This document shows, in pieces, positions 5,053 to 60,482 of a DNA stretch of 64,000 bases. A program made the position numbers and the translations under genes. The notes under the pieces are model-generated. The model ran no database searches, had not been told where the DNA came from, and saw nothing but the letters and a program-made list of their open reading frames with translations. The stretch is taken from assembly GCA_949285075.1 (NCBI GenBank), contig CASDXF010000003.1:33758-97757 (forward strand). The letters run 5' to 3'. Each line of letters begins with the position of its first letter. Positions within the stretch are counted from its first letter, which is position 1. The stretch is from an uncultured Bacteroides sp. Its GTDB lineage: Bacteria > Bacteroidota > Bacteroidia > Bacteroidales > Bacteroidaceae.

Positions 5053-5255
5053 GACCTTCTCCGTTTGACAGCTCGCCCCGCGGCTCGCGACAGGCAGCCC
5101 TACGGCTCGCGACAGATAGGGCAGCGGCTCGCGACAGATAGGGCTGTTTCTCGAACGGATGGTAAATCGCTGATAATAAGCGCTTCGCATATGGGACGTG
5201 GTGGCGACGCGTTTGTTCCACTCAAGCGATTCTTCTAATGACGATTTGGGCTTAT
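5053..5255 (+). repeat. Dispersed 22-bp-unit intergenic repeat, copy A
   Basis: The core has three contiguous 22-bp units whose GGCTCGCGA blocks start at 5082, 5104 and 5126, followed by GGGCTGTTTCTC. Downstream are the family's conserved GCTGATAATAAG and TTTGTTCC..TCAAGCGATT blocks. The right end TTCTTCTAATGACGATTTGG (within 5229-5255) is the inverse of the left end of copy H. All three units of this copy read CGACAG where the other copies mostly read CGAGAA. It lies between the divergent HTCS and susC genes. The left arm seen in copies D, F and H is missing here. Confidence 0.85.
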
Positions 5256-5291
5256 TGAGTTATCTTTTTTCTAATGTAGAGTGTATGATAT

Positions 5292-5299
5292 TAAATTTG
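5292..5299 (+). promoter_or_regulatory. Possible -7 element TAAATTTG upstream of susC
   Basis: It matches TAnnTTTG but ends only 7 bases before the chosen susC ATG at 5307. It would therefore give an almost leaderless transcript, or it may not be the real promoter. Confidence 0.3.
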
Positions 5300-5306
5300 A
5301 TTACTT

Positions 5307-8300
5307 ATGGGAGTAGGACACATTATTATAAGAAAATCTTTAGGTATAGGTTGGCGAAAGGGCGTGAACGCCTTTTCTAAGAGATTGTTCTTAATCTCTA
5401 TGTTCTTGGTGTCGGCGCTGGGCGCGACGACTAATACTGGTGTATATGCGCAGCAAACGGATGAAGTAAAAACGGTAACGCTTCAGGGAAGTGTACTTGA
5501 TGCGGATGGAAATCCGATTCCCGGAGCGAGTGTCCGCTTGAAAGGAAAGACTACGGGTACGGTCAGTAATATCGACGGAGCGTATTCGTTGACTGGAGTT
5601 AAGATAGGAGATGTTGTGGAATTTTCTTTCATCGGTTTTGTCTCGTTGGAGAAGAAGGTGACGGGAACCACGCTCAACGCGGTGCTCTTGGAAGATACGA
5701 GAACGCTGGACGAGGTGGAGGTCGTGGCTTTCGGTACCCAGAAGAAGGAGAGCGTCATCGGTTCTATCTCTACGATAAAGCCGGCCGAGCTTAAGGTTCC
5801 TACAAGCAACCTGACCAACGCGCTTGCCGGAAGAGTGGCGGGTATTATCGCTTACCAGCGTACGGGTGAGCCGGGAGTGGACGATTCAAACTTCTTTATC
5901 CGGGGAGTTACTTCGTTCGGTTACGCCAAATCGCCGTTGATTCTGATTGATAACATAGAGGTAAGCACGGAGGACTTGTCGCGGTTGCAGCCTGACGATA
6001 TCGAAAGTTTCTCTATCATGAAAGACGCTACGGCTACCGCGCTATACGGTTCCCGGGGAGCCAACGGCGTTATTCTGGTAAAGACGAAAGAGGGACAGAC
6101 CGGCCCGATGAAATTAAATCTGCGTATTGAGAACTCCATTTCCACGCCGACAAAGATGCTGGAACTGGCCGACCCCATTACGTATATGAAGCTGCACAAC
6201 GAGGCGATATTGACCCGTGACCCGCTGCACGCGCTGATGTACTCCGAGGACAAGATAGACAATACCGTGCCGGGACATCCTACCGTGATTTATCCTGTAA
6301 CGGACTGGCGCGAGGAGTTGCTGAAAGACTTTACGATGAATCAACGGATTAACATGAACGTGAGCGGTGGAGGAAGTATGGTCAATTATTATGTAGCCGG
6401 TTCGTTTATGCAGGATAACGGTATCCTCAACGTGGATAAGGCGAATAACTTCAATAATAACATCAAGAACCGTAACTATTCACTCCGTTCTAACATCAAT
6501 ATCCGATTGACGAAAACGACCCAGTTGATGGTACGTATGAACGGAGCCTTTGAGGACTATAATGGACCTATCAACGGAGGTTCCGACCTTTATTACAAGA
6601 TTATGCAAAGTAATCCCGTACTGTTCCCGGCTACTTATCCGAAAGACAAGGACCATGCCTATGTAAAGCACATCATGTTTGGAAACGCCGGTGACGGGAA
6701 ATATATTAATCCTTACGCGGAGATGGTGAAAGGATATAAGGAAACCGGACGGGCGAAGTTGGAATCGCAGTTTGAACTGAGTCAGGAACTGGACTTCATA
6801 ACGAAAGGATTGAAGTTCCGCGCCCTGTTCAATACTTCCCGCTTGTCCTATTACTCCACTTCCCGCCAGTACAAGCCGTTCTACTACGCTTTGGGACAGT
6901 ATGATTACATGAACAATACGTACACGATAGATATTCTTAATCCCAATGGCGGAACGGAGTACCTAGACTATAATGAAGGTGACAAGACGATTACCTCGAA
7001 TACGTATCTGGAGGCGGCGTTGAATTACGACCGCGAGTTCGGGAAGCACGGCATCGGCGGATTGCTGGTCATGCAGCTGAGGAACAATCAGCAGCCTAAC
7101 GCGAGCTCCTTGCAGACCTCGCTTCCCAAGCGAAACGTGGGCTTGTCCGGCCGTTTCACTTACGCTTACGATAACCGCTATTTCATAGAGGGAAACTTTG
7201 GCTACAACGGTTCAGAGCGTTTCGACAAGAGCCACCGTTGGGGATTCTTCCCTTCCGCCGGATTCGCCTATATGATTTCAAACGAGAAATACTTTGAGCC
7301 TCTTTTACCTTATGTCCAGAAACTGAAGCTGCGCGCTTCTTATGGCTTGGTAGGTAACGATAATATCGGAGATGCTAACGCCCGGTTCCTGTATTTATCG
7401 GAGATTAATATGAATAATTCGGGAACGGGAGCGAGCTTCGGCTATAACGAAGGCGCTTACAAGAAGAACGGTATCGCCATTAACCGTTACGCCGACCCGT
7501 CTATCGGATGGGAGGTGGCGAAGAAGATGAATTTCGCCATTGAACTGACGGTACTGGACGCGATGAACATTACGGCGGAATACTATCGGGAGAAGAGGGA
7601 TAAGATTTTGCAGTCGAGAGCCGATATACCCAACACGATGGGACTGTGGCAGACGCCGAACGCCAACTTAGGCAAGGCGAAGTCGCACGGCGTGGACTTC
7701 TCTTTGGACTATAATAAGTATTTTACGAAAGACATGTGGTTGCAATTGAGGGCGAACTTCACCTATGCGGCCAATGAGTATGTAGAGTATGAGGAGGTGG
7801 AGTATCCGGGCGCTCCGTGGAAGAGCCGCATCGGAAATCCTATCGCCCAACAATACGGATACATCGCCGAGGGACTGTTCGTTGACGACGAGGAGGTGCG
7901 GAACTCGCCCGTACAGTTTGGCGAATACGGTGCGGGGGATATTAAGTACCGTGACGTGAACAGGGACGGCGTTATCTCCGAGTTGGATATGGTTCCTATC
8001 GGATATCCCACAGACCCAGAGATAGTGTACGGCTTCGGAGCCTCTTATGGATTTAAGAACTTTGACTTTTCCGTATTCTTTCAGGGACTGGCCCGCGAGT
8101 CTTTCTGGATTGATTATGACAGGGTTTCTCCCTTCTTCGATAACTCAAGCACGGACGCTCGCGAGAATAACCAGTTGGCGAAGTTCATAGCGGATAATCA
8201 TTGGTCTGAAACCAACCGCAATATCTATGCGGAGTGGCCTCGCCTGAGTGACACTTCGGTTGAGAACAACGCCAAGAAGAGTACATGGTTCATGCGCGAC

Positions 8301-8516
8301 GGTTCTTTCCTTCGGTTGAAACAGTTGGAAATAGGCTATACGCTACCTCATAGGCTCGTTTCAAAGGCGGGGCTGAAAAATTTGCGGGTTTATTTTACCG
8401 GAAACAATCTGTTTTGCTTCAGTAAGTTCAAGGAATGGGATGTCGAGCAGGCCGGGGATGGACTGAAATACCCGTTGCAGAGAATCTATAATATTGGTTT
8501 GAATTTAACTTTCTAA
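5307..8516 (+). CDS. SusC/RagA-type TonB-dependent outer membrane glycan transporter
   Basis: This 1069-residue protein has a long positively charged N-terminus and signal peptide (cleavage after VYAQ, about residue 49). It continues with a CarboxypepD_reg-like domain (VTLQGSVLDADGNPIPGASV, about 60-135), a TonB-dependent plug (about 150-260, with SIMKDATATALYGSRGANGV) and a 22-strand-type barrel ending in the usual aromatic residue (NIGLNLTF). It would import oligosaccharides across the outer membrane, powered by TonB-ExbBD, with the SusD encoded immediately downstream as lid. The start at 5307 gives a longer pre-signal segment than usual but no better in-frame ATG precedes the hydrophobic stretch. 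It is the first gene of the PUL operon. Confidence 0.96.
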   Translation: MGVGHIIIRKSLGIGWRKGVNAFSKRLFLISMFLVSALGATTNTGVYAQQTDEVKTVTLQGSVLDADGNPIPGASVRLKGKTTGTVSNIDGAYSLTGVKIGDVVEFSFIGFVSLEKKVTGTTLNAVLLEDTRTLDEVEVVAFGTQKKESVIGSISTIKPAELKVPTSNLTNALAGRVAGIIAYQRTGEPGVDDSNFFIRGVTSFGYAKSPLILIDNIEVSTEDLSRLQPDDIESFSIMKDATATALYGSRGANGVILVKTKEGQTGPMKLNLRIENSISTPTKMLELADPITYMKLHNEAILTRDPLHALMYSEDKIDNTVPGHPTVIYPVTDWREELLKDFTMNQRINMNVSGGGSMVNYYVAGSFMQDNGILNVDKANNFNNNIKNRNYSLRSNINIRLTKTTQLMVRMNGAFEDYNGPINGGSDLYYKIMQSNPVLFPATYPKDKDHAYVKHIMFGNAGDGKYINPYAEMVKGYKETGRAKLESQFELSQELDFITKGLKFRALFNTSRLSYYSTSRQYKPFYYALGQYDYMNNTYTIDILNPNGGTEYLDYNEGDKTITSNTYLEAALNYDREFGKHGIGGLLVMQLRNNQQPNASSLQTSLPKRNVGLSGRFTYAYDNRYFIEGNFGYNGSERFDKSHRWGFFPSAGFAYMISNEKYFEPLLPYVQKLKLRASYGLVGNDNIGDANARFLYLSEINMNNSGTGASFGYNEGAYKKNGIAINRYADPSIGWEVAKKMNFAIELTVLDAMNITAEYYREKRDKILQSRADIPNTMGLWQTPNANLGKAKSHGVDFSLDYNKYFTKDMWLQLRANFTYAANEYVEYEEVEYPGAPWKSRIGNPIAQQYGYIAEGLFVDDEEVRNSPVQFGEYGAGDIKYRDVNRDGVISELDMVPIGYPTDPEIVYGFGASYGFKNFDFSVFFQGLARESFWIDYDRVSPFFDNSSTDARENNQLAKFIADNHWSETNRNIYAEWPRLSDTSVENNAKKSTWFMRDGSFLRLKQLEIGYTLPHRLVSKAGLKNLRVYFTGNNLFCFSKFKEWDVEQAGDGLKYPLQRIYNIGLNLTF

Positions 8517-8528
8517 TTGGAGAATACG

Positions 8529-10451
8529 ATGAGAAAAATATATGCTTTTTGGATGGCGGCCGCTTTGTCTTTAAGTTCGTGCAATAATTATCTGGATATC
8601 ATTCCCGATAATATCGCGACAATCGACAATGCGTTTACGATGCGCACGGAAGCCGAGAAGTTCTTGTTTACATGTTATTCATACAGGCCTTCGGTCGGCA
8701 CGAAGGAAGACCCGGCGATGTTTGGTGGGGATGAGCTTATCGTGACGGAGTACTTCCGCGAGAGTAGCAGTATGCAATCCGGATACTACGTAAGTCATGG
8801 GATGCAGCGTTCCAGTGACCCTTACTATAATTATTGGAACGGTCAGCAGCAGGCCAATGATATGTATCAGGCGTTGCGTGACTGTAACATCTTCTTGGAG
8901 AATATAGACAAAGTGCCTGACATGACCGCGTTGGAGAAAGACCGGTGGATTGCGGAGGTTAAGTTTCTGAAGGCTTATTATCATTATTGGTTGGTGCGTA
9001 TGTACGGGCCTATCCCTTTGATAAAGACTAATCTGCCAATCGAGACCGGAGTGTCGGAAGCTAAGGTGTATAGAGATACGCTTGACGATTGCTTTAGCTA
9101 CATTATCGAGTTGTTGGACGAAGCGATTGCCAGTGAAGGGTTACCCGACCGAATAGAGAACGAGACGGAGGAGCTGGGCCGTGTGTCTAAGGCGGTCGTA
9201 TATGCGATGAAGGCGGAAGTGATGATGACCGCCGCAAGTCCGCTGTTCAACGGGAACATGGACTATGCGGGGCTTACCGATAACCGGGGCGTGGAGATAT
9301 TCAATCCCCGTAAGACGGAAGAAGAAAAGCGTAAGAAATGGGAGGATGCGGCCGAGGCTTGCCGCCAAGCGATTGACTTCTGCGAGGGGGTTAATTACGG
9401 TCTGTATGAGCCGGAATATTTTGATGACTATACCAATATGACAGAAGGCGGAAAGCAAGTGATGGCTTTGCGCCGGGTAATGACGGAGAGGTGGAACAAT
9501 GAGATTATTTGGGCCAATTCGAACGCATGGTTCGGTGACTTCCAGAAACATTGTATACCTCGCGGATGGACGGCGGAGACGGTGAATAATACAAGCGGCG
9601 CGACGGGAAACTATGCGGTTCCGTTGAGGATAGCCGAACTGTTCTATACGAAGAACGGCGTACCGATGGAGGAGGATAAAGAGTGGGGATATGACAATCG
9701 GTACAATGCGGCTAAAGTAGGTGAGGATAATGCGGACCACATGGCGAAAGACCAATGGACGGCAAGGTTCAACTTGAACAGGGAAGCCCGCTATTACGCT
9801 ACGTTGGGATTCGACAGAGGCCTTTGGATAGGACAAGGTACGAGAGATGTCAGTCAAGCCAATTACCTGAAAGCAAGAGCGGGCGAGACAGCGGCGAACG
9901 CGTTTGAGACTTGTTGGAATCTTACGGGATTCTGGCCGAAGAAATTAACTCACGATGGAACGGTGGTTACGTCAAACAGCATCACGATTGAGAAGTATCC
10001 GTTTCCGGTAATTCGTATGGCTAGCCTTTATCTGCTGTATGCGGAGGCCTTGAATGAGATTAACGCTCCTTACGAAGACGTGCTGCCGTGGATAGATAAG
10101 GTACGTAACCGTGCGGGCTTGAAGGGAGTCGAGGAGTCGTGGACAAATTATTCTACGGACCCTACAAAGTTTATGGATCAAAATGGCTTGCGTGAGATTA
10201 TCCATACGGAACGGATGATTGAACTGGCGCTAGAGGGACAGCGTTTGTGGGATCTTCGGCGTTGGAAGGAGGCTTTGTCTGTATTCAATGAACCGGTTAC
10301 CGGATGGAATCTGCTGTATAATTCGGCGGATGACTATTATAAGGAGACATTAGTCTTTAACCGGACATTCAATGTGCGCGACTATTTCTGGCCGATACAG
10401 GACTCGGAATTGTGGCGTAACAGAAACCTCAGACAGAATTACGGTTGGTAA
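8529..10451 (+). CDS. SusD/RagB-like glycan-binding outer membrane lipoprotein
   Basis: The 640-residue lipoprotein has a signal peptide with lipobox LSSC and mature start CNNYLDIIPD, the typical SusD N-terminus. The remainder shows the TPR-rich SusD fold with the conserved patterns FLKAYYHYWLVRMYGPIPL, LYLLYAEALNEI and, near the C-terminus, ERMIELALEGQRLWDLRRW. I chose ATG 8529, preceded by TTGGAG; a TTG at 8517 is in frame but lies directly after the SusC stop codon and adds nothing recognisable. It sits on the cell surface over the SusC channel and binds the glycan. It is 12 bases downstream of susC and so surely co-transcribed. Confidence 0.95.
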   Translation: MRKIYAFWMAAALSLSSCNNYLDIIPDNIATIDNAFTMRTEAEKFLFTCYSYRPSVGTKEDPAMFGGDELIVTEYFRESSSMQSGYYVSHGMQRSSDPYYNYWNGQQQANDMYQALRDCNIFLENIDKVPDMTALEKDRWIAEVKFLKAYYHYWLVRMYGPIPLIKTNLPIETGVSEAKVYRDTLDDCFSYIIELLDEAIASEGLPDRIENETEELGRVSKAVVYAMKAEVMMTAASPLFNGNMDYAGLTDNRGVEIFNPRKTEEEKRKKWEDAAEACRQAIDFCEGVNYGLYEPEYFDDYTNMTEGGKQVMALRRVMTERWNNEIIWANSNAWFGDFQKHCIPRGWTAETVNNTSGATGNYAVPLRIAELFYTKNGVPMEEDKEWGYDNRYNAAKVGEDNADHMAKDQWTARFNLNREARYYATLGFDRGLWIGQGTRDVSQANYLKARAGETAANAFETCWNLTGFWPKKLTHDGTVVTSNSITIEKYPFPVIRMASLYLLYAEALNEINAPYEDVLPWIDKVRNRAGLKGVEESWTNYSTDPTKFMDQNGLREIIHTERMIELALEGQRLWDLRRWKEALSVFNEPVTGWNLLYNSADDYYKETLVFNRTFNVRDYFWPIQDSELWRNRNLRQNYGW

Positions 10452-10484
10452 GTGAATTTATGTACGAAATAAAAAAGAATCCTT

Positions 10485-11729
10485 ATGAGAACAAGAATAT
10501 TTATAGGACTATCGTTCTGGTTGGTTATGGCCGGCTTATGGCTGACCGGTTGCGGAGAAGCGGACTTGAACGAGCCTTCGGGGAAAAAAGTCGCCCCTCA
10601 ACAAGTGACGGTCAGGGAGGTTAAGAATCTGAATGGCGGAGCGATTATCTATTATTCGCTTCCCGACGACCCGAATCTGAAATATGTGCGTGCCGTATAT
10701 GAGGTAAAACCCGGTACGAAAGCGGACTCCAGAGCTTCCTTTTATGTAGACTCGGTGGTTGTTGAAGGGATGCAGGAAGGCGGGAAGCACGAAGTGGAGC
10801 TATATTCCGTCAGTTATGGCGAGGTTTCTTCCGAGCCTGTCATCGTGGAGATAGACGCTAAGACTCCCGTTTATCAGGAGGTTTGCCGTACGTTGAAGTA
10901 CGATAAGACTTTCTCCGGTGTAAAGGTAGAGTTCGAGAATTCTACGCAGGCGAAGGTCTCTATCGGTGTATTGAAGAAAAACAGCGAAGGCAAGTGGGAG
11001 CAACTTTACATGCACTATACCTCAGCCGCAAGCGGAAACTTCTCTGTTCATGGGCAGGATGCGGTAGAGACGGAGTTCGGCTTCTATGTGCGTGACCGGT
11101 GGGGTAATTTGTCCGATACGCTTTCGTTCATTACGGTTCCTATTTTGGAGATAGAGTGTGACAAGACGCTGTTCAAAAACGCCAAACTGCCGGGTGACGA
11201 GTGGGAATGCCATCAATGGGCCTCTATGCAGGACAACGCCATTGAGTGCGCATGGGACGGAAGGACGGTAGGGCTTCCGATGTATCACTCGAAGAGCGTG
11301 ACGATGCCTCGCCATATCACTATAGACTTGGGAAAGAAATACAAGTTCAGCCGCTTTGTTTATTATGGACGTTGTGATACCCAGACGATTATTGAGGCGT
11401 ATGTGAGAGGGCATATCCATCTGTTTGAACTGTACGGAAGCAACAGTCCTAACCCTGACGGTTCTTTGGATGACAGTTGGACGCTGATAGGTTCGTACGA
11501 GACGACGAAGGCCTCGGGAGGCGGACCGAACGACCCCGTGACGGAGGATGACCGTCAGAAGGTAATGGCCGGCGAGGAGTTTGAGGTAGACGAAGAGGCG
11601 GGAGCTTATCGTTATGTACGCTTACGGGTACTTGAAACGTGGGGTGTGTACGGCTCATGGGGCGAGTATGAGGCTAGCAGCTTCATCTTTATCAACGAGC
11701 TGACGTTCTACGGGACGGAAGAAGAGTAA
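10485..11729 (+). CDS. Surface lipoprotein, DUF4959/DUF5000-like with discoidin-type C-terminus
   Basis: This 414-residue lipoprotein (lipobox LTGC, about residues 20-23) has an N-terminal part of fibronectin-like strands (KVAPQQVTVREVKNLNGGA, about 35-130) and a middle Ig-like part. Its C-terminal domain resembles an F5/8 type C carbohydrate-binding fold (MPRHITIDLGKKYKFSRFVYYGR, then FELYGSNSP and YVRLRVLETWG). Such DUF4959/DUF5126/DUF5000 proteins usually follow susD in PULs and are taken as surface glycan-binding proteins. That role here is inference from fold and position. It starts 33 bases after susD. Confidence 0.8.
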   Translation: MRTRIFIGLSFWLVMAGLWLTGCGEADLNEPSGKKVAPQQVTVREVKNLNGGAIIYYSLPDDPNLKYVRAVYEVKPGTKADSRASFYVDSVVVEGMQEGGKHEVELYSVSYGEVSSEPVIVEIDAKTPVYQEVCRTLKYDKTFSGVKVEFENSTQAKVSIGVLKKNSEGKWEQLYMHYTSAASGNFSVHGQDAVETEFGFYVRDRWGNLSDTLSFITVPILEIECDKTLFKNAKLPGDEWECHQWASMQDNAIECAWDGRTVGLPMYHSKSVTMPRHITIDLGKKYKFSRFVYYGRCDTQTIIEAYVRGHIHLFELYGSNSPNPDGSLDDSWTLIGSYETTKASGGGPNDPVTEDDRQKVMAGEEFEVDEEAGAYRYVRLRVLETWGVYGSWGEYEASSFIFINELTFYGTEEE

Positions 11730-11763
11730 ACCATTCATTACTAAGACTTAAAAACGATGAATT

Positions 11764-12474: not shown

Positions 12475-12502
12475 GCTGCATTGTAAGAGGGGAAAAGTGG
12501 AT

Positions 12503-13720: not shown

Positions 13721-13727
13721 AGGAACT

Positions 13728-15191: not shown

Positions 15192-15204
15192 AGGAAGTTC
15201 GATT

Positions 15205-17323: not shown

Positions 17324-17429
17324 ATCTATTCCTGTCTAAGAAACTGTTTTGAATTTCTCCAAAAAGTTTTTCTTAGCTTGATGTATCCGTTTTCGTGCGC
17401 GCTTTGAGCGATTTTTTTAGTTCTGTTCT

Positions 17430-17605
17430 TCTTCATTTGTCAGTTCGCCCTGCGGCTCGTGAGAGACAGCCCTGCGGCTCGCGAGAAATAGGGCAGCGGC
17501 TTTCGAGAAACGGGGCTGTTTCTTAAGCTAAGTATAACGTGTTGATAATAAATGATTTCGTTCGTAAGAGTTATGACTGTGTATTTGTCTTTCGACCAAG
17601 AGCTC
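17430..17605 (+). repeat. Dispersed 22-bp-unit intergenic repeat, copy B
   Basis: It begins at the family's CATTTGTCAG block, has three 22-bp units, and continues with GTGTTGATAATAAATG. The terminal hairpin reads GAGAAACG-GGGC-TGTTTCTT, where a T-A pair of copy D is replaced by C-G. Its left arm does not match copies D, F and H. It lies between convergent genes (PL8 and folE); the right boundary is vague. Confidence 0.8.
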
Positions 17606-17744
17606 GCTTTATTTTGAGAGACTGAAAAGGAACTCAAAAGAGACCAGACAAAATCACTTAAACGCGGAACATAAACGACAGGCTTTAAGCGTTCCGGAAT
17701 AGTTATGTGAAGGGGTAATTACAGAGTATAAGCCTTGATGAAAA

Positions 17745-21627: not shown

Positions 21628-21834
21628 ACAATAATTATATGAGAAAAAGAGGTGGACACTCTAAATTATATTAAAGCGCCCTCCCGTGTCCGTTTCCCAA
21701 TCCACCCCTTACCTATTGGTTTAAAGCCCTTTGACTCACCCCGCCTACAATGAGCTCAAGAATCCATCCGAAAGCCTTTCTCTGTTTTATCGGCCGCCTC
21801 ACCACGGTATCCGTAAGTATGACTTTAGCTCCAA

Positions 21835-22050
21835 AGCAAGTCACTTATTACCAGCGACTTATTGCCCGCTTGAGAAACAGCCCTATTTCTCGCGAGCCGC
21901 TGCCCTGTTTCTCGCGAGCCGCTGCCCTGTTTCTCGCGAGCCGTAGGGCTATTTCTCAAGAGCCGCAGGGCGACCTGACAAATGAGGATGGATTAAGTGA
22001 ATCTCATGTATCGCAAAAGCGGAAAAACATACCCGAAAGCCCCTCCAAGA
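21835..22050 (-). repeat. Dispersed 22-bp-unit intergenic repeat, copy C (inverted, four units)
   Basis: This is the only copy on the minus strand and the only one with four 22-bp units. Read on that strand it has GGGTATGTTTTTCCGCTTTT and CATTTGTCAG upstream of the core, then GAGAAATA-GGGC-TGTTTCTC (21891 to 21872) and CTGGTAATAAG. It fills most of the divergent gap between DUF1599 and the GH43 gene. The 21628-21834 stretch shows nothing else. Confidence 0.85.
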
Positions 22051-27544: not shown

Positions 27545-27889
27545 GTTTTTTTCGTCGAAAACGTAGTCCTTCAATTAACTATTTTTCAGACGGATGAAAC
27601 GAGATGGCAAGGCGAACGCCTTCATAAACTTCGATAAATAGGGAGATAAAAGAAAAACATGTTTTGCAACATGTCGTCGAATCTCCTCTGATATTTAGGT
27701 GTTTTTAACATGAAAGATAAAAAGGTTCTAAATAACGGTATGAAACAGTCTTCCGTAGCGGATGCTCCTTTACAATAATATATAAGAGTAACCAACGGCT
27801 ATCCGTGACAAAAATCCATACGTCGGCGGTAGCCTTTGCGCAAGAAATCTACGGCCATTTTGGATGTATGAAAAGATGCTCTATTTTTA
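27545..27889. other. Gap between ndk and repeat D
   Basis: No gene of normal size is visible. A 22-codon frame starts at ATGAAAGATAAAAAGG (about 27710), with no sign of being real. An imperfect dyad lies near 27643-27687: GGAGAT ... ATCTCC around ACATGTTTTGCAACATGT. It has no T run. Confidence 0.4.
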
Positions 27890-28175
27890 GCCCATAAAGG
27901 TCATTAGAAAACTTTATGCCCAAAATGTAAGGGCGTTTAAATCTGTCCGAGTTCCCTTTCAGCGGGTCTTTCAGGGTATGTTTTTTCGCTTCCGCAATGA
28001 GAATAGACCGTATCCATTTGTCAGCTCGCCCTACGGCTTGCGAGAGATAGCCCTACGGCTCGTGAGAAATAGGGCAGCGGCTCGCGAGAAATAGGGCTAT
28101 TTCTCAAATGAGAAATAAGGAGTTGATAATAAGGTGATTAGTGGATAGGACGCTATGGCGTATATTCGTTCCAGT
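27890..28175 (+). repeat. Dispersed 22-bp-unit intergenic repeat, copy D (near full length)
   Basis: The left arm starts with GGTCATTAGAAAACTTTATG (27899), then CCCAAAATGTAAGGGCGTTT, TATGTTTTTTCGCTTCCGC and CATTTGTCAG. Three 22-bp units and GAGTTGATAATAAGG follow. The terminal hairpin is perfect: GAGAAATA-GGGC-TATTTCTC (28086-28105). The right end is degenerate and runs close to the aldo/keto reductase stop codon. Confidence 0.85.
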
Positions 28176-28198
28176 CAAGCAGAATAAGGTCGTTGTTC

Positions 28199-32606: not shown

Positions 32607-32689
32607 AATATTGAGCTTATCATTCGATAAATAGCGCAATTCTTGGGCTATGGAATTTGCGACTGTTGCCAAGTCGTTACCTCACTTTA

Positions 32690-32930
32690 CGTCGCTTCCG
32701 CAATGAGGAGGATTTGCGTTAGCCTCACTCCATTTGTCAGCTCGCCCTACGGCTTGCGAGAGACAGCCCTACGGCTCGTGAGAAATAGGGCAGCGGCTCG
32801 CGACAGATGGGGCTGTCGCTCGAATGAAATATAAGGCGTTGAAAATGAGATGTTTTGTGTATGGAGCGTTGTGACGATGTGTTTGTTCCTATCAAGTGGC
32901 TTTTCTAATGATGTGATTTAGGATAAATGG
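32690..32930 (+). repeat. Dispersed 22-bp-unit intergenic repeat, copy E
   Basis: It starts at the CGCTTCCGCAATGAG block, has CATTTGTCAG, three 22-bp units and GGCGTTGAAAATGAG. It ends with GTTTGTTCCTATCAAGTGGC then TTTTCTAATGA, the inverse of the left-end motif of copy D. Its terminal hairpin uses a different register: GCGACAG-ATGGGG-CTGTCGC (32800-32819, 7 perfect pairs). It follows the broken flavin-reductase gene. Confidence 0.85.
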
Positions 32931-39476: not shown

Positions 39477-39686
39477 TTAAGACACGGTGAGTTGCCCGTC
39501 TTTGACAAAACACATGTCAAAGACGGGCTTCTTGTCAAGAAAACAGTAGTCGACAATGACGGAAAGAAAATTGGCAATGAGGTTTTTGAAAGACCGGAGT
39601 CTGGAATGCTCAATCCGTGTAACATTCTTCAACTCGTCGTTGACTGTCTCTGTCTGAGTCTCTTTTTTGAGAGGATTTTGCTGCTT
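39477..39686 (-). pseudogene. IS982-like transposase, C-terminal remnant
   Basis: On the minus strand an open frame encodes about 69 residues containing LKKETQTETVNDELKN, then RIEHSRLRSFKNLIANFLS, DYCFLDKKPVFD and a C-terminal KDGQLTVS. The order LKK..ETVNDELKN..IEHSR.RSF..F..N....YCF..KKP..QL is that of the C-terminal end of IS982-family transposases of Bacteroidetes. An in-frame stop at 39687-39689 and the lack of the DDE catalytic part upstream show it is a remnant. Upstream (39698-39705, minus strand) is a TATATTTG element. I see no clear IS ends or target duplication. Confidence 0.75.
39494..39528. terminator. Perfect 14-bp hairpin after phoA
   Basis: GCCCGTCTTTGACA pairs perfectly with TGTCAAAGACGGGC around AAACACA, 30 bases after the phosphatase stop, with a mixed T-rich tail TTCTTGTC. 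It overlaps the transposase remnant, so it could be a terminator for phoA, a barrier to the remnant, or both. Confidence 0.6.
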
Positions 39687-39848
39687 TTAATAGAACAAAT
39701 ATACTAATTTGAAAGCGAATCACAACTAAGTATAGAGTAACTGACACACCTCCCTGCTGTTTTTAATAGTGCCAAAATGCTGATTAAAAAATAAATAGTA
39801 ACGGGTAATTCCCGAAATGAAAAAGCCCGATTGCCTTTTAACTTAAAT

Positions 39849-40174
39849 AGGCTATTCGGGAATTTTATGTCCAAAATGTAAAAGCGTTTAAATTAGCCCG
39901 AGCGTTTTTAGTAGAGTTTTTTCGGGCTTGTTTTTAGTTTTTACGATGAAAAGGATTCACATTAATTTTCTCCGTTTGTCAGCTCGCCCAACGGCTCATG
40001 AGAGACAGCCCAACGGCTCGCGAGAAGTAGGGCAACGGCTCGCGAAAAGTGGGGCTGTTTCTTAAATGGGTTGTAAGGTGTTGATGATAAGGTGGTTTCA
40101 TGCGTAAGGCGCTGTGACTATATGTGCTTGTTCCTATCAAACGATTTTTCTAATGACCGGTTGAGGTTTAATGG
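39849..40174 (+). repeat. Dispersed 22-bp-unit intergenic repeat, copy F (near full length)
   Basis: The left arm has GGGAATTTTATGTCC, AAAATGTAAAAGCGTTTAAA, CACATTAATTTTCTCCG and TTTGTCAG. The core has three units, all reading CAACGG where other copies have TACGG or AGCGG. Then come GTGTTGATGATAAGG, TTGTTCCTATCAAACGATTT and the end motif TTTTCTAATGA. Next to its left end AATTCCCGAA (39807) and TTCGGGAATT (39855) form a 10-bp inverted pair. The 39690-39848 stretch holds no gene. Confidence 0.85.
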
Positions 40175-48666: not shown

Positions 48667-48789
48667 GATACACAAACATTATAGTGAATACTTGGCGCGC
48701 CTGTCGGCGTGCCGTTAACTTTAACGGGGCGCAAATTATGGATTTATCGCGGGAAAAGCAAAATAAGCCACGATGTTACTAAACAATGT

Positions 48790-48914: not shown

Positions 48915-49278
48915 GTTGACGTTCGGAAAACTTTTGTGAATGAATCCCATTTTTATGCGCAATCTTAAAAATAGACCATTCTGAAAAACGGAACATTCTG
49001 ATGCCCCTACAACGCGATAATTCCGACCGAGGTACAGTGTGGACGAAAAGAACGCGTTTTTACGGCATTAGCGAAAATCAGATAGTTTGCGAAATGCTAG
49101 TATAATAGTCATTTATTTGTTGTATAATCTAAATATATGTCTTTTTAATACAATAGGTTGTCAAAGTCCGGATAAATGATATTTTTATCCCATCCAGAAG
49201 ACGAGGGCAATTAGAAGCGAAAAGGCGTAAAATGCCTGCCCGATTCACTGAAATGGAGACGCTTTGTCATTACTTCTT
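48915..49278. other. Gap between the EF-G-like gene and hemW
   Basis: No gene is supported. The phrase ATCTTAAAAATAGA-C-ATT occurs at about 48960 and again at about 49494, on both sides of repeat copy G. The rest is AT-rich and featureless. The shorter stretch 49365-49590 before hemW also holds nothing coding. Confidence 0.4.
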
Positions 49279-49364
49279 CATTTCCCGTTCGAGAAATAGG
49301 GCTATTTCACGGGAGAAACAAGGCTGCGGCTTGCGAGGCGTAGAGCTGCGCTTCGCATCCGACA
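49279..49364 (+). repeat. Dispersed 22-bp-unit intergenic repeat, copy G (degenerate)
   Basis: It keeps pieces of the core in altered order: CGAGAAATAGGGC, GGGAGAAACAAGGC and TGCGGCTTGCGAGGCGTA. The hairpin GAAATA-GGGC-TATTTC remains perfect, flanked by CCCGT/ACGGG. The left and right arms of the family are not recognisable. It is the most decayed copy in the window. Confidence 0.6.
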
Positions 49365-49590
49365 GCCCTTTCTCACCGCCCGCAAAGCGGGTGTTTGCAC
49401 GTTTTCACCCCCGAAACGCACGTTTTTCACACGCTTTTTGCCCGGTTCATCCGCCTAAAATGAAAATTTTGATGAGTCTGTTTTGGGGGAAAATCTTAAA
49501 AATAGAACATTTTTCGTGAAGGAGACACCGCCGCTTGCCCGGTATGGATAATAGCCTTACCTTCGCGCACGTAACCAATATGAACAGCGC

Positions 49591-50721: not shown

Positions 50722-50737
50722 AAAAGCCTTATCTTTG
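50708..50737 (+). promoter_or_regulatory. Promoter of the lysO genes (TTTG and TATCTTTG)
   Basis: TTTG at 50708-50711 and TATCTTTG at 50730-50737 are 18 bases apart, close to the Bacteroides consensus. The lysO start is 32 bases further on. Confidence 0.6.
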
Positions 50738-50769
50738 CAGCCGCAAAACAGAGAGGAGGAGACTACATT

Positions 50770-51664: not shown

Positions 51665-51685
51665 CAGGGAGGACGGACGGGCGAA

Positions 51686-53977: not shown

Positions 53978-53985
53978 AGGCGGGG

Positions 53986-55038: not shown

Positions 55039-55070
55039 ATCTTATTCTCCTATAATGATTAAACCGGAAA

Positions 55071-55078
55071 CAAAGATA
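55071..55078 (-). promoter_or_regulatory. -7 element TATCTTTG of the DUF2027-Smr gene
   Basis: Perfect TAnnTTTG on the minus strand, 32 bases upstream of the start codon at 55038. Confidence 0.6.
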
Positions 55079-55131
55079 GGGCATTTCTCCGACTCCCCGC
55101 ACCGCTCGACCGCTTTTTGCCTAACTTTGCC

Positions 55132-55476
55132 CGCGATTTTGTCTCTGCTGGGGCGAAACGGGCGGTAAGGCAAAGTGAAGAATCCTCTTCGAAAGCACTC
55201 CGGCAAGCCACAATGACGGTTGCTTTTAGCCTACTAGATACCTCAAATCCCTTACCTTGATAAGTGGCTAACTGCCGTTAGCCACCAAACAAAAACGTGA
55301 GAAGGACATAGAAAAAGGGCTAGCTCCTCCTTGAAAGGCGCAGATTAACGTTTGAGGATTCCCTAGTCAGGGTTATCAAGACGGCGGAGGAAGCGTGATT
55401 TTTTCTTCCCCTCCCCGTAAGAAACGGGCCATCCCGTGCGACTAACCCCATCGGAAAAACGAAAGGAACAAGTGAC
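55132..55476. other. Gap before the second ECF sigma gene
   Basis: No gene is visible. A TAACTTTG element at 55132-55139 faces rightward but is about 340 bases from the sigma start, so its use would imply a long leader. The rest shows no repeat or clear hairpin. Confidence 0.35.
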
Positions 55477-55971
55477 ATGGAAGAAGAGTTTATCGAACGG
55501 ATAAGAGCGCACGAGGGCATCCTGCGGAATATATGCGACATCTACTTCTACCGCCATCCCTACCGGGAGGACTGCTATCAGGAGATGCTCATCAGGCTAT
55601 GGAGGGCCTACCCGGCCTTTAAGGGGCAGTGCGCCTTCGCCACATGGATGTATCGGGTGGCCTTGAACACGGCCATCGACCTCGTGAGGCGGGAGTCCGT
55701 GCGGCCCCTCCATAGGGAGCTGACCGCCGCGGAGTACGCCCTGCGCGACGCTTCCGGCGGGAACGCCGAGGCCGAGTTACGGAAAGAGCGGCTCTACCGG
55801 GCTATCGACACCCTGACGGAGGTAGATAAGGCCATCATCCTGCTCTACCTCGAAGAGAACGACTACAAGCAGATTGCCGAGGTGGTGGGCCTATCGGTCA
55901 ACCACGTGGGAGTCAAGATTAACCGAATCAAGAAACAACTAATCAAACTACTGAAAGATGGAGACGAATGA
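55477..55971 (+). CDS. ECF-type RNA polymerase sigma factor
   Basis: The 164-residue protein has region 2 (ICDIYFYRHPYREDCYQEMLIRLW, FATWMYRVALNTAIDLV) and region 4 (LTEVDKAIILLYLEENDYKQIAEVV, SVNHVGVKINRIKKQL). It is complete, and the next gene overlaps its end by 14 bases, so the two are translationally coupled. The coupled partner is a membrane protein and may control it. Target promoters are not evident in the window. Confidence 0.94.
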   Translation: MEEEFIERIRAHEGILRNICDIYFYRHPYREDCYQEMLIRLWRAYPAFKGQCAFATWMYRVALNTAIDLVRRESVRPLHRELTAAEYALRDASGGNAEAELRKERLYRAIDTLTEVDKAIILLYLEENDYKQIAEVVGLSVNHVGVKINRIKKQLIKLLKDGDE

Positions 55972-56569
55972 ACTGACCAGATTATGGAAGGCGGTGGGCG
56001 AGGATACGGCCCGGGAGGTGAAGACCCGACCCGCCGACATCGCAAGCATGATAGGCAAGCGGCGGAGCGCCCTCATGGAGCGGGCCGACCGGAGGCTAAG
56101 GCTATGGACGTGGATATTCGGGGGGCTCGCTCTGTGGAACGCGTTCGGCGTCGCGGTGGAGCTGCTGATGGGGGAGGCGCACTCCTTCACGCAATGGTGC
56201 GGGCTGCTCGCCGCGCTCGTCCTGCTTCGCTCCGTAGTCATCCGGAGGCGGTCGCTCGTCGCTCCTCGCCCGGATGTCACCCTCAAGGAGGCCACCCTCC
56301 TGCTGCGCAGGCGGCTGAGGCGCGAGCTGCTCGTCGAGTTCCTGACGCTACTCTTCCTCTGCGGCTCGGCGGCGGCTTACATGGCCTTCACCACCTTCGG
56401 CTCCCCCGCCTTCCGTGCCGAGGGGACGGGGTTCAAGGCGTTCGCCGTCGCCGCGGTCGTCTGCTTGGCCGCCGTGCCGTGGATAGTGCGCCTCGTGCAG
56501 CGGTGGCGGTACGAATCGCTGCTCAAGGCGCTCGACAAAGAGGCGCGGCTGTTGGAGGAAAGCGAATAA
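55958..56569 (+). CDS. Membrane protein coupled to the ECF sigma factor
   Basis: The 203-residue protein has a charged N-terminal segment (about 1-45) and four predicted membrane helices in two pairs (about 48-65, 76-92, then near 130-148 and 160-180), each followed by Arg-rich loops (RRRSLVAPRP, RRRLRRELL). I do not recognise the family by eye. The 14-base overlap with the sigma gene and topology suggest an anti-sigma role, but it lacks the single-helix plan of most anti-sigma factors. Confidence 0.7.
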   Translation: METNELTRLWKAVGEDTAREVKTRPADIASMIGKRRSALMERADRRLRLWTWIFGGLALWNAFGVAVELLMGEAHSFTQWCGLLAALVLLRSVVIRRRSLVAPRPDVTLKEATLLLRRRLRRELLVEFLTLLFLCGSAAAYMAFTTFGSPAFRAEGTGFKAFAVAAVVCLAAVPWIVRLVQRWRYESLLKALDKEARLLEESE

Positions 56570-56574
56570 ATCCA

Positions 56575-56582
56575 TACTTTTG
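56575..56582 (+). promoter_or_regulatory. -7 element TACTTTTG of aroA
   Basis: Perfect TAnnTTTG, 36 bases before the aroA start at 56619; it would fall inside the gene if an earlier in-frame start were used. Confidence 0.6.
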
Positions 56583-56618
56583 CCACCCGATACATTTATA
56601 TATATAGACAGACCCTAC

Positions 56619-57851
56619 ATGACACGTTACAGAATCACTCCCCCCACGAGCGTCGCCGCCACCGTTCAGCTACCGGCGTCGAAGAGCATCAGCAATCGGG
56701 CCCTCATCATCAACGCCCTCGGCAGGGGCGCCTTCCCGCCCGCCAACCTGTCCGACTGCGACGATACCCGCGTCATGGTCCGCGCCCTGAACAGCGGGGA
56801 CGAGACCATAGACATCATGGCGGCGGGAACGGCGATGCGCTTCCTGACCGCCTACCTGAGCGTCACCCCCGGCGAGCGGGTCATCACCGGAACCGAGCGC
56901 ATGAGGCAACGGCCCATCAGCGTACTGGTGGACGCGCTCCGCTCGCTCGGGGCCGACATCGGCTACGTGGAGCGCGAGGGCTTCCCCCCGCTGCGCGTCA
57001 GGGGAGGGCGGCTGCGGGGCGGGCAGGTTTCCCTAAGCGGAAGCGTCAGCTCGCAGTACATCTCCGCCCTGCTGATGATAGGCCCCGCCTTGCCCGAGGG
57101 CCTGACGCTCCACCTGACGGGCGATATCATCTCCCGTCCCTACATCGACCTCACCCTGCGGCTGATGAACGATTTCGGGGCCTCGGCCCGATGGCTCGCC
57201 GCCGACCGCGTGGCGGTGGAACCGAGGCCCTACCGCTGCGTCCCCTTCATCGTGGAGAGTGACTGGAGCGCGGCCTCCTACTGGTATCAGATAGCGGCCC
57301 TCTCCGCCGACCCCGACATCGAGCTGAAGGGGCTGTTCCGCCACAGTTATCAGGGCGACAGCCGCGGGGCGCGGCTGTTCGCCCGGTTGGGAGTCGCTAC
57401 GGAGTACACCGACGGCGGCGTGCGACTGCGGCGCAGCGGCCCGCTTCCCGAGAGGATAGAGGAGTGCTTGGTCGACATACCCGACTTGGCGCAGACCTTC
57501 GTCGTTACCTGCGCCCTGCTCGGCGTTCACTTCCGCTTCACCGGACTGCAAACCCTAAAGATTAAGGAGACCGACCGCATAGCCGCGCTGAAGGCGGAGC
57601 TACGGAAACTGGGCTACCTCGTCGAGGAGGAGGGCGGCGACACGCTGCGGTGGGACGGAGCGACGACCGAGCCGGAGGCCGACCCCGTGATACGTACCTA
57701 CGAGGACCACCGCATGGCGATGTCGTTCGCCCCCGCTGCATTCCGCCATCCCGGACTGACGATAGCCGAGCCTCAGGTGGTCTCCAAGTCATACCCCCAC
57801 TATTGGCGTGACCTCCGCGCCGCCGGGTTCGTAATCGCCGAGGCGGAGTGA
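56619..57851 (+). CDS. aroA: 3-phosphoshikimate 1-carboxyvinyltransferase (EPSP synthase)
   Basis: The 410-residue shikimate-pathway enzyme joins shikimate 3-phosphate and phosphoenolpyruvate. It shows QLPASKSISNRALIINALG, DIMAAGTAMRFLTAYL, SSQYISALLMIGPAL, KETDRIAALKAEL and YEDHRMAMSFAPA, the standard binding and catalytic motifs. Length is slightly below the E. coli enzyme. ATG 56619 is preferred because the sequence begins TRYRITPPTSV like other Bacteroidales AroA and because the promoter lies just before. It converges with the S41-like gene over a shared terminator. Confidence 0.96.
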   Translation: MTRYRITPPTSVAATVQLPASKSISNRALIINALGRGAFPPANLSDCDDTRVMVRALNSGDETIDIMAAGTAMRFLTAYLSVTPGERVITGTERMRQRPISVLVDALRSLGADIGYVEREGFPPLRVRGGRLRGGQVSLSGSVSSQYISALLMIGPALPEGLTLHLTGDIISRPYIDLTLRLMNDFGASARWLAADRVAVEPRPYRCVPFIVESDWSAASYWYQIAALSADPDIELKGLFRHSYQGDSRGARLFARLGVATEYTDGGVRLRRSGPLPERIEECLVDIPDLAQTFVVTCALLGVHFRFTGLQTLKIKETDRIAALKAELRKLGYLVEEEGGDTLRWDGATTEPEADPVIRTYEDHRMAMSFAPAAFRHPGLTIAEPQVVSKSYPHYWRDLRAAGFVIAEAE

Positions 57852-57881
57852 CACGCTCCTCCCCGCCCCATAGGATATGAG

Positions 57882-57922
57882 AAGCTCCCTCCCCCGACGC
57901 TCGTCGCCGGAGGAGGGAGCTT
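57882..57922. terminator. Bidirectional terminator between aroA and the S41-like gene
   Basis: AAGCTCCCTCC pairs perfectly with GGAGGGAGCTT (11 bp) and an inner CGACG/CGTCG pair adds to the stem. It lies centrally between the two convergent stop codons. T runs are short on both sides. Confidence 0.65.
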
Positions 57923-57945
57923 ATGGTCTCCGCACTGCGGTTCCG

Positions 57946-60165
57946 CTATTCTCCCCTGAAGTATTCAAAGGCCTTGTCGAGCCACACGTCACGGCCCTTC
58001 TCCACGTCTTCCACGGTCTGCGTCACGGGGATGTCGATATGGACACCCCTCCGCTGTCCCAGTCCCCACTGCGGATAGAAGGCTCCCGCCATCGTGTAAC
58101 TCAGGCGGACTCCCCTCGGGAGATACAAGTATCCGAGGTGGCCTATCGCGCCCGCCGTCTGCGTGCCGATTATCACGGCGTTGGGAGCTTTCCGGTAGGC
58201 TATGGCCTGTATCTCGCCAATGTTCTGGGTGCGCTCGTCTACCAATATCGCCACCTTTCCCTTGAAGGCTTCGGGGTCTTCCCTGCCGACCTTGCCCACG
58301 ATGTCGAGGAAGAAGTTGCCGGGGAAAGTCTTGGAGTTCATGGAGTACCACATGAATTCCTCCGGCTCAGGGCAGATATACCCGCCTATGATGTTCTGCG
58401 CATAAGACTTGGGGTAGTCACGCAGGTCGATGATGATGGCGTTATATCTGTTCGGGTGCTCCTTCATGAATTCGACGCTCTCCCTCAAATTGGCGGCCGT
58501 GGCCTCGCTCAGGTCGAAGTAGCGGCTCTTCACGCCGCTTCGGTAGCGGTCAGACTCCCGTCCCTCTGCCCATCTTCTCGTATAGGTCTGGGTAGGCACG
58601 AGCATGGTCTTCTCCCTGCCTTTATAAGTCACGGTGACCTCCTCCTTCTTTTCCGGGGTCAGGAACATCCGTTGGGCTACCCCGCGCTTCATACCGGCTT
58701 CGTTCGAGGCGGATATGAGGGGCCGAAGCTCTGCGGACAGCTTGTCTACGGTCTTCCCGTTAACGGCCTTTATCACCGAGCCGCGGTCTATCTCGGCCAA
58801 GCGGGTAGAGGCTACGGCGTAGTCTCCCTTGTCCGTCACGGTCAGCGTGAGCGGCAGTCCCCGGGGCTTCTCCTCCTTCGCCTCGTCCTTGCCGAAGCTG
58901 ACGCGCACGTTGGAGTCGTTCATCTCCGCCGCCAGTCTCTCTATGGAGCGGTTGAGCGCCTCCTCCGAGGCGGCGTCCAGAAACTCCGGCAGGTACCGGC
59001 GCAGCAAGCCGCTCCAGTCGTTGTCGGTCTGCGTAGTGTAGGGGTAGCAGTAGGCTATGGCGTTCCACATACGGTAGAGCGTGAGGATGCGGTAGCCTTG
59101 ATCGTCCCACCCTATCTCCTTGTAGGGCTTCTCGCGGGTGAACTCGACCTCTTCCTTTCCGCCGAGGGGTACTAAGTAGTAGTTGAATACGGGATTACGC
59201 TTGGCGTCCCTTATCCTAAGGAGCTTGCGGGAGAGTTCCTTGCCGAGCAGCTCCTCGTCGCCGAGCCACTGTAGCGGGGCGAAGCGGTGGAACTGGGCCG
59301 AGTCCGCTACGGTGTAGTCCACCTGTCCCTCTATTTCGCCGTACTTGTCGACCCATCGCTTCAGCAGCTTGTTCCGCTCTTCCTTGTCCGAGGCTTCCGC
59401 TATCTGCGGCAGCACGCGGAACAGCTCGAAGTCCCAGTTGTAGTTACCTTCGGTCACGCGGGGATGATAGTATTTGAGGAATCCCCACACCTTGCCGAGC
59501 AGCTCCAGATTGTCTAAGGTCTGCTCGTCGGCCTCCTTAAGGCGTACGCGGGAGTTCTTCGTGAACTCCACGTCCTTGTCCGCCTTCCGGGTGGGGTTGA
59601 CCAATATGTCGAGTGAATGCCCGTCGATAGAGACGTCGCAGTCGCTGACCCATAGCTTCATGTCGCCCGAGGCTACGATGCGGAAGTAGAAGTGCTCCGT
59701 GCGGGGCAGGGGCATCTCTACGGAGAACTCCGTCCAGTCCGCCGAGCCTTCGCACTCGCGGCGCACTCTCTCCTGCTCATTGGTCGACTGGTAGGTGTCG
59801 AGCGCGATGAGGAAGTCTACCGTGCCCTTCTTCGGGGCCTCGTACTTGTACTTCCCGCTGAAGGTGACCTTGTCGCCTACGATGTCTCGGTTGTAAAGAT
59901 GGAAGAAGGTGAGCACCATCCCGGTGTCTCCGGGCTGAATCAATACGCTGGCCTGATTGTCACAGCGGGTAAGGGTGTCGACCCGGGTGAGCCGTCCGTC
60001 GCTGAACCATCCCATAGGGGACATGGCCAGATAATTACCGGGATAGGGGTAGACGCGCGCGCTGTCGAACGAAAGGAATCCCCTTTCCACTCGCTCCGCC
60101 TTCTTAGTACACGCCGTGAACGCGAGTACGCAGAGCAATGCCAGATAAAAGATTTTGCTTTTCAT
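57946..60165 (-). CDS. S41 peptidase-like lipoprotein lacking the expected catalytic serine
   Basis: The 739-residue lipoprotein (lipobox FTAC near residue 17) has a beta-rich N-terminal part (about 30-205), a helical linker domain (about 215-400) and a PDZ-like part around 430-500 (VIKAVNGKTVDKLSAEL). The C-terminal S41 tail-protease fold (about 540-735) carries IDLRDYP, AILVDERTQNIGEIQA and GTQTAGAIGHLGYLYLPRG. In active relatives the Ser of the TQS motif is the nucleophile; here the position (residue 648) is Asn, encoded AAC. It could be a non-proteolytic binding or scaffold protein. ATG 60165 starts the lipoprotein signal. Confidence 0.85.
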   Translation of the reverse strand: MKSKIFYLALLCVLAFTACTKKAERVERGFLSFDSARVYPYPGNYLAMSPMGWFSDGRLTRVDTLTRCDNQASVLIQPGDTGMVLTFFHLYNRDIVGDKVTFSGKYKYEAPKKGTVDFLIALDTYQSTNEQERVRRECEGSADWTEFSVEMPLPRTEHFYFRIVASGDMKLWVSDCDVSIDGHSLDILVNPTRKADKDVEFTKNSRVRLKEADEQTLDNLELLGKVWGFLKYYHPRVTEGNYNWDFELFRVLPQIAEASDKEERNKLLKRWVDKYGEIEGQVDYTVADSAQFHRFAPLQWLGDEELLGKELSRKLLRIRDAKRNPVFNYYLVPLGGKEEVEFTREKPYKEIGWDDQGYRILTLYRMWNAIAYCYPYTTQTDNDWSGLLRRYLPEFLDAASEEALNRSIERLAAEMNDSNVRVSFGKDEAKEEKPRGLPLTLTVTDKGDYAVASTRLAEIDRGSVIKAVNGKTVDKLSAELRPLISASNEAGMKRGVAQRMFLTPEKKEEVTVTYKGREKTMLVPTQTYTRRWAEGRESDRYRSGVKSRYFDLSEATAANLRESVEFMKEHPNRYNAIIIDLRDYPKSYAQNIIGGYICPEPEEFMWYSMNSKTFPGNFFLDIVGKVGREDPEAFKGKVAILVDERTQNIGEIQAIAYRKAPNAVIIGTQTAGAIGHLGYLYLPRGVRLSYTMAGAFYPQWGLGQRRGVHIDIPVTQTVEDVEKGRDVWLDKAFEYFRGE

Positions 60166-60256
60166 GCTGTAAGTATAGTTATTGTTAATAAACGGTGCGC
60201 AATTTAAGTAATCTTTACCATGTATCAAAGGAATAAGGAAATAATATTAAAATATT

Positions 60257-60482
60257 TAAGCCCCAATCGTCATTAGAGAATTTCGTGTTCCAAATGTAAG
60301 GACGTTTAAGCTTGCTCAGGGCTCTTTTGACGGGATGTTTTTCGCTTCCGCGATGAGGGGCATTCACATTAAGCTTTCTCCACTTGTCAGCTCGCCCTGC
60401 GGCTCGCGAGAGATAGCCCTACGGCTCGCGAGAAATAGGGCAGCGGCTCATGAGAAATAGGGCGATGGCTCACGAGTCGTAA
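60257..60482 (+). repeat. Dispersed 22-bp-unit intergenic repeat, copy H
   Basis: It has the best left end of the family: TAAGCCCC then AATCGTCATTAGAGAATT (60257-60282), then CCAAATGTAAGGACGTTTAA, GATGTTTTTCGCTTCCGCG, CATTCACATTAAG and TTGTCAG. Three 22-bp units follow plus a diverged fourth (GGGCGATGGCTCACGAGTCG). The right arm is missing, so the copy is truncated there. It lies between the S41-like gene start and recG. Confidence 0.85.

Follow-up and report, generated by a model that had tools for sequence, protein, structure and literature searches.

Hairpins located in convergent and tandem gaps between genes are characteristic of intrinsic terminators and of terminator-like miniature inverted-repeat transposable elements (MITEs). 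The repeats described here come from a 64-kb window (the whole stretch of DNA analysed, C3:33758-97757) in the draft genome of an uncultured Bacteroides sp. (3.19 Mb in 75 contigs, 86.5% complete), and they differ from both in consisting of three to ten head-to-tail units of 22 bp and in showing no constant run of T. Seven of the eight copies in the window (A-F and H, here called class I) represent an element made of a leader, three or four such units, a tail and terminal inverted repeats (TIRs), while copy G belongs to a second repeat, class II. The closest described system is BrickBuilt, a MITE of Porphyromonas gingivalis with 23-nt units and TIRs like those of the insertion sequence (IS) IS5 (GAGACC...); one strain carries 19 copies, and its matches are confined to P. 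gingivalis and P. gulae (Klein et al. 2015, PMC4596501).

BrickBuilt resembles class I in its spacerless tandem units, its leader and tail, its TIRs resembling those of a resident IS, its invariably intergenic position, the existence of copies without leader or tail, and its predicted long stem-loops (PMC4596501). It is unlike the elements studied here in that the latter have 22-nt palindromic units, IS1380/IS1634-like TIRs and at least 161 profile matches, and that the same period occurs in many species with other sequences. Identity with BrickBuilt was rejected, given the 22-bp unit and the TIR AACCCAAATCGGTCATTAGA here and the 23-nt units and GAGACC-type TIR in Table 2 of that report (PMC4596501). 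The same source mentions 41-, 23- and 22-nt tandem direct repeats reported earlier from P. gingivalis W83, whose exact locations were not identified; the 22-nt repeats agree with ours in length, and the passage concerned gives nothing on their symmetry (PMC4596501). A broader likeness exists to the GTAG- or CGTC-tagged repetitive extragenic palindromic (REP) sequences and bacterial interspersed mosaic elements (BIMEs), which a further source presents as short extragenic palindromes, often of high copy number and clustered in some families, with differences between species and a proposed role in RNA (PMC3733652). Our arrays, in contrast, have no common tag, keep an exact 22-bp tandem period and occur as several unrelated types per genome.

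Palindromic 22-bp arrays of unrelated sequence recur in the intergenic DNA of many of the relatives sampled. This emerged from a blind scan for tandem periods of 12 to 44 (windows of 40 bases with 28 or more identities, after removal of low-complexity sequence; 100 kb per genus genome). Leaving out its double 44, period 22 ranked first in 10 of 12 other genomes of the genus. The arrays at 22 numbered 6 each in G309 and G307, 5 in G313 (where 44 also had 5), 4 each in G290 and G341, 3 each in G304, G219 and G055, and 2 each in G324 and G280; the exceptions were G149, with one (periods 23 and 39 had two each), and G436, with none. Over these 1.2 Mb, 39 arrays had period 22 versus 5 each for periods 21 and 23, and the periods other than 22 averaged 1.19 (standard deviation 1.45, highest 5); in G313 and G341, arrays that adjoin each other were scored separately. 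The sample was not random, as seven of the 12 genomes had been chosen for earlier pattern or profile matches, the scanned stretch was placed over such a match in G290, G309, G341, G055 and G307, and five of the 39 arrays are these matches themselves, at four places (G290, G341 with two adjoining, G055 and G307). Among the five genomes chosen without an earlier match (G304, G313, G219, G280 and G436), period 22 accounted for 13 arrays and ranked first in four genomes, period 44 accounted for 8, and no other period exceeded 3. Seven further period-22 arrays were found in 346 kb from six other genera of the family (three in G010, two in G008, one each in G003 and G005, none in G013 and G022), one in 309 kb from nine genomes of the class outside the family (a tenth, with 1001 bases, was left out) and none in 100 kb of Escherichia coli K-12. 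The unit sequences were unrelated both between genomes and inside one genome. No description of a 22-bp period in Bacteroides or Bacteroidetes was found among the titles and abstract openings listed in searches of the openly accessible literature.

The unit of the window itself has a narrow distribution. Allowing one mismatch, it was confined to this genome among 301 genomes of the family (0 of the 300 others), and with two mismatches three of 157 other genus genomes had one match each. The core profile, with 24 candidates scored per genome, had 20 matches in G149, which carries a related array family with a CTCGCGAGCCGTGCAAGTGTCT-like unit; G055 and G381 had a single weak match apiece. A pattern of two palindromes separated by 14 bases was present in 35 of 158 genus genomes, many of them with one or two matches only (586 in this genome, 280 in G149, 60 in G339, 51 in G351 and 30 in G324; reversed control mostly zero, maximum 10 in G360), the 14-base spacer differing from species to species; five of 98 other genomes of the phylum had a single match. 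The 22-bp core described in the earlier note is sound within the window and represents one sequence type of a wider phenomenon, which could not be seen from a single window.

Such freedom of sequence would be expected if the arrays were mere by-products of ordinary slippage at palindromes, functionless and kept wherever they are not selected against. We consider this explanation unlikely, though not markedly so, and it returns below; neutral slippage alone leaves a single exact period unexplained, with 5 arrays at each neighbouring period against the 39 at 22.

Symmetry was assessed in 68 arrays, comprising 22 from 198 kb of this genome, 39 from the genus and seven from other genera. Dyad centres were spaced 11, 22, 33, 44, 55 and 66 bp apart in 60, 50, 32, 23, 11 and 7 cases, respectively, other spacings being rare. 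Since a 22-bp period with one dyad yields dyads every 11 bp, only the period and the dyad count as independent observations. The dyad score was higher than the mean of column-permuted units in 60 of the 68 arrays, the best single dyad in 52, and RNA folding gave z < -2 in 47. With their exact period, their dyads at multiples of 11 bp and their spread over many contigs, the arrays could be phased sites for a hypothetical nucleoid organiser or recombinase reading dyads every 11 bp on one helix face. This appears improbable to us, because the unrelated sequences would oblige the protein to read geometry alone, B-DNA phasing would favour 21 bp at least equally and the 11-bp dyads are already implied by the period and one dyad; no protein was identified, none having been searched for.

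The gap between fusA2 and hemW, which contains copy G, allows the arrays to be followed among relatives. It is 915 bp long here, against 251-558 bp in 13 of the 19 relatives fetched; this difference fits insertion of copy G, whereas L126, where a partial hemW match would put the gap at about 1.2 kb, counts against it; in five of the 19, hemW was not seen within the fetched locus. At a slightly looser threshold (26 of 40), six of the 13 relatives had 22-bp arrays, of three unrelated types, one had a 23-bp palindromic array and six had none. The gap of L119 is nearly identical to those of its near relatives L111, L116 and L117 with the four-base centres of all three dyads changed, reading TTAA in all three versus AGTT, AATT and AACT, of which the outer two, AGTT and AACT, are reverse complements. 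The long hairpin is predicted to stay intact, at -45.7 kcal/mol in L119 and -41.2 kcal/mol in L117, in this one unpolarised case. In a second such case, the gap of L122 holds four palindromic units, 23 bp apart, and the otherwise similar gap of L118 holds one; L118 also lacks a further stretch upstream. The two gaps form a natural length series of palindromic units. As judged by these alignments and predicted folds, the fusA2-hemW locus is one at which arrays appear, vanish and change with pairing kept among relatives. Arrays that come and go at an orthologous locus would suit functionless by-products as well; the compensatory change in L119, a single case, argues against them.

Outside this genome, 43 of 46 arrays had genes called on both sides by a simple in-house caller. 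The overlap with coding DNA never exceeded half of an array in these 43 (maximum 19%), intergenic DNA making up 15.3% of bases. Convergent gaps held 13 of them, tandem gaps 23 and divergent gaps 7, versus 14.4, 60.9 and 24.7% of intergenic bases, respectively, a convergent excess with a one-sided p of 0.006. Furthermore, 17 of the 23 arrays in tandem gaps were closer to the 3' end of the upstream gene (p = 0.035; one of them by a single base). The exclusively intergenic position is compatible with by-products of slippage, while the bias towards 3' sides and convergent gaps, with its modest p-values, speaks against them.

In the window's own genome, the CTCGCGAG array type occurs within class I, within class II and bare. 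A class I profile built from 18 seeds (the seven window copies and eleven further loci) had 47 sites of at least 15 bits in 458 kb, on four contigs that include the one with the window. The set rule classes 18 of these sites as full, and C and H as bare or partial, C's fourth unit splitting the match and H having no tail; G is below threshold. The 18 full copies lie between called genes, with overlaps of at most 47 bp. Among the 29 other sites, 11 overlap class II and the others are bare arrays or class I fragments; seven of the 46 period-22 arrays in the same 458 kb lie away from profile sites and have other units. Over the whole genome there were 276 unit matches with up to two mismatches (reversed-pattern control 0), and a sequence-only profile of the 109-base core had at least 161 matches (150 of 1816 candidates scored; a few share a site). 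The extrapolation to hundreds of copies per genome made in the earlier note therefore has the right order of magnitude. The matches are spread over the genome and not restricted to the window, and no known element explains the family. What the earlier note took for one family is dispersed, intergenic and high-copy as it said, but resolves into a MITE-like element, a second repeat and bare arrays. The shared direction of seven of the eight copies holds inside the window and is lost genome-wide, where 48 of 89 class I-like matches lie on the plus and 41 on the minus strand (hand-picked among the matches listed as those of at least 79 bits, minus two covering the inner core only, plus two full-span matches with one unit fewer); same-strand pairs within a contig were 52 of 89, a number reached by 405 of 5000 random strand assignments.

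The mean identity of 81.3% among 26 class I cores (range 71.6-91.7%) marks the family as old. A conserved fold of the core was not supported, as covariation in these aligned cores is no higher than in shuffles, a result that by-products of slippage would also give. A structured non-coding RNA family, with its function in sequence and fold, would account for the hairpins predicted in most arrays; it is nevertheless hardly credible, given that covariation, that no copy has an Rfam match at gathering score, that the fold z of copy E (class I, 231 nt) is only -1.1 as DNA and -1.2 as RNA, and that the unit sequence varies by species. Searches with the class I core in plasmids and phages, and with the unit and the class II stretch in viral contigs, gave no match, and a wide contig search gave five single matches in unrelated phyla, about the number estimated by chance.

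The ends of class I are diverged inverted copies of the consensus AACCCAAATCGGTCATTAGA, the left end being near it and the right its reverse complement. Both are kept (at most 5 of 17 mismatches) in 9 of 53 distinct copies, spanning 299-346 bp in eight and 221 bp in one; in the remaining copies the ends have diverged further, are truncated or are cut off where the locus stops. Like MITEs, class I is short, dispersed and multi-copy and has no transposase gene. Of 158 genus genomes, 18 have matches to its TIR, the present genome among them, where the TIR also bounds a near-identical MITE of about 168 bp. In G330, another species, it is present at both ends of an IS1380-family remnant of about 750 bp (L095; NF033539 6e-22, PF13701 1.7e-14) and starts 127 bp 5' of an IS1634-family open frame (L077; 5e-102; single end seen). 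Because this TIR is common to the 168-bp MITE, the IS1380 remnant and the flank of the IS1634 frame, class I, with its IS1380/IS1634-like TIRs, is best read as a MITE, which it most likely is. Among other small elements with this TIR, 5-bp duplications were recognised by eye in L070, L093, L095, L099, L101 and L105, and not in L059, L075, L082, L083, L094, L097 and L106. An IS1380-like fragment at C38 (a 59-position match below the cut-off) could not be confidently assigned after inspection.

Alternatively, palindromic, intergenic and high-copy elements such as these might be of REP/BIME type and moved by a REP-associated tyrosine transposase (RAYT). A Y1 transposase is matched once in this genome, within an open frame of 192 aa (C4:12029-12376, L031), and an array of the family (C4:11637-11698) lies about 330 bp 5' of that gene. 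However, the gene is flanked by other, nearer palindromes that are GGACGGCTTCGCCGTCC-like, class I has the long TIRs of DDE-type IS, and, while GTAG is present inside many units of this genome, inspection by eye of the units from other species revealed neither GTAG nor CGTC as a common tag. RAYT was not supported as the mover, and we hold this origin to be very doubtful. The GGACGGCTTCGCCGTCC-like palindromes are perhaps the RAYT gene's own REP family.

We propose a two-layer explanation that combines arrays arising in place, MITE spread and a hairpin role at 3' ends, and which as a whole we regard as somewhat probable on balance. The array would be a structural module that arises and turns over in place, with class I and class II as vehicles for one type in this genome. 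Whole hairpin units may be gained or lost at replication through template switching or slippage at the palindrome, so that sequence would drift while period and dyad symmetry stay; the choice of 22 bp lies outside the proposal. An IS1380/IS1634-type transposase acting in trans would have moved class I as a MITE and thereby scattered the CTCGCGAG array type. In the weakest step, arrays would be tolerated or kept as 3'-end RNA hairpins when transcribed from either side, serving in termination or in protection of mRNA 3' ends, by analogy with the way REP/BIME elements are thought to work. More tentatively, we raise the possibility, short of a probable one, that bacteria of the family build and rewrite intergenic arrays, in which an 11-mer alternates with its reverse complement, by a process that is independent of sequence and has an inherent 22-bp ruler and dyad symmetry, some of these arrays being MITE-borne. 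Such arrays would then be bacterial repeats whose defining property is geometry and not sequence.

A number of results weigh against the two-layer explanation. Hairpin stability is partly a consequence of palindromic units, and complementarity in the local hairpin is no higher than one unit further on. Where both partners vary, cross-unit pairing exceeds within-unit pairing in this genome (82 vs 48 of 170), in the genus (135 vs 110 of 368) and in other genera (33 vs 28 of 88). When the order of the units is shuffled, the best long hairpin is only slightly weaker, and one long hairpin per array found no support as a general rule. The covariation of the class I cores equals that of shuffles. An intergenic position is expected of any such array, because 22 is not a multiple of 3. 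In this genome there is no 3'-end bias, either for full class I copies (12 tandem, 3 divergent, 3 convergent) or for the other sites (13 divergent, 11 tandem, 3 convergent). As to the mover, no intact IS1380 transposase was found in the draft genome, where IS1634 was not searched, and target-site duplications were not apparent for class I, the summed 5-mer identity of 24 versus 21.7 for re-paired flanks being reached in 422 of 2000 cases.

If the period is general, it would point to a sequence-indifferent machine or structure that measures about two duplex turns, in one of the main gut-bacterial families. A single locus with no array, one unit or four units among relatives would make the role of short intergenic repeats testable, and the arrays could serve as fast-changing markers and explain some of the intergenic DNA in these genomes. 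By itself, the MITE layer is of modest interest only.

In the window, repeat finding and alignment recovered all eight copies with their flanks where the earlier note had placed them, and all eight are intergenic. The flanks it assigned to seven copies are shared by A-F and H, H having the leader without the tail, and are absent from G; its list lacked the array beside copy A. Unit matches with up to three mismatches numbered 15, against 0.04 expected and a maximum of 1 among 100 shuffles. The gene content, with an EF-G2 (Bacteroides model), a SusC-type TonB-dependent receptor, a hybrid two-component regulator and a PL8 lyase, is indicative of Bacteroidaceae.

Table 1. Repeat features of the 64-kb window, in window coordinates; C3 positions refer to the contig.
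Feature	Position	Strand	Basis and remarks
22-bp array of a different unit (TGTACATG type), directly 5' of copy A	4950..5045	.	Period-22 scan, C3:38707-38802
Copy A, class I: part of leader, core from ~5082, tail, right TIR	5040..5256	+	Profile C3:38797-39013, 203 bits; right end sequence TTCTAATGACGATTTGGG
Copy B, class I	17382..17617	+	Profile C3:51139-51374, 175 bits
Copy C, class I, core of 4 units	21815..22044	-	Profile C3:55572-55801; alignment
Copy D, class I	27888..28181	+	Profile 211 bits; left TIR at 27888 (C3:61645, 6/28 mismatches)
Copy E, class I	32689..32927	+	Profile 231 bits
Copy F, class I	39841..40171	+	Profile 224 bits
Copy F, right TIR	40142-40169		C3:73899, 6/28 mismatches
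Copy F, left TIR	from ~39841		Degenerate
Copy G, class II, fusA2-hemW gap	48961..49513	+	Class II profile 425.6 bits (copy G among seeds); degenerate 22-bp core at ~49284-49370
Class II left end repeat	48961..48982	+	C3:82718
Class II right end repeat, direction as left	49492..49513	+	C3:83249
Copy H, class I: left TIR, leader, core; without tail	60249..60483	+	Profile C3:94074-94240, 166 bits; TIR by alignment

Class II is about 550 bp long and contains the same 22-bp units between end repeats near AATCTTAAAAATAGAACATTTT that run in the same direction. Matches above 150 bits numbered 13 in 458 kb, and two, including copy G, had no core match at threshold; end repeats with up to three mismatches were absent away from class II in these 458 kb. 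The left end repeat is tandemly doubled.

A CRISPR (clustered regularly interspaced short palindromic repeats) array was rejected as an identity, since the units are contiguous at 22 bp and not separated by unique spacers; a CRISPR-repeat pattern search gave no match. At gathering score, the sole Rfam match over the window, with none on copies A-H, was a solitary CRISPR-DR49 repeat near copy F (RF01362, 45.8 bits; window 39680-39726, minus strand).

Some further repeats were noted. L008 and L013 contain another common repeat, TGAATTTCTCCAAAAAGTTTTTCTTAG, that adjoins arrays of the family, and at C8:68876-69111 about ten units (CCGTACGGATACAAGTTCATAG) form a 22-bp array that has no relation to the CTCGCGAG family. 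Copies of the ~168-bp MITE lie at L070 (C12:46012-46163), L059 (C42), L075 (C24:20012-20125), L058 (C36) and L062 (C26); the C24 copy is shorter, those on C36 and C26 are cut at contig ends, and the C12 copy has a 5-bp duplication, ATGAA. This MITE is young. G396 has 169 matches to the class I TIR, several of them paired about 180-200 bp apart, perhaps reflecting a MITE burst in another species.

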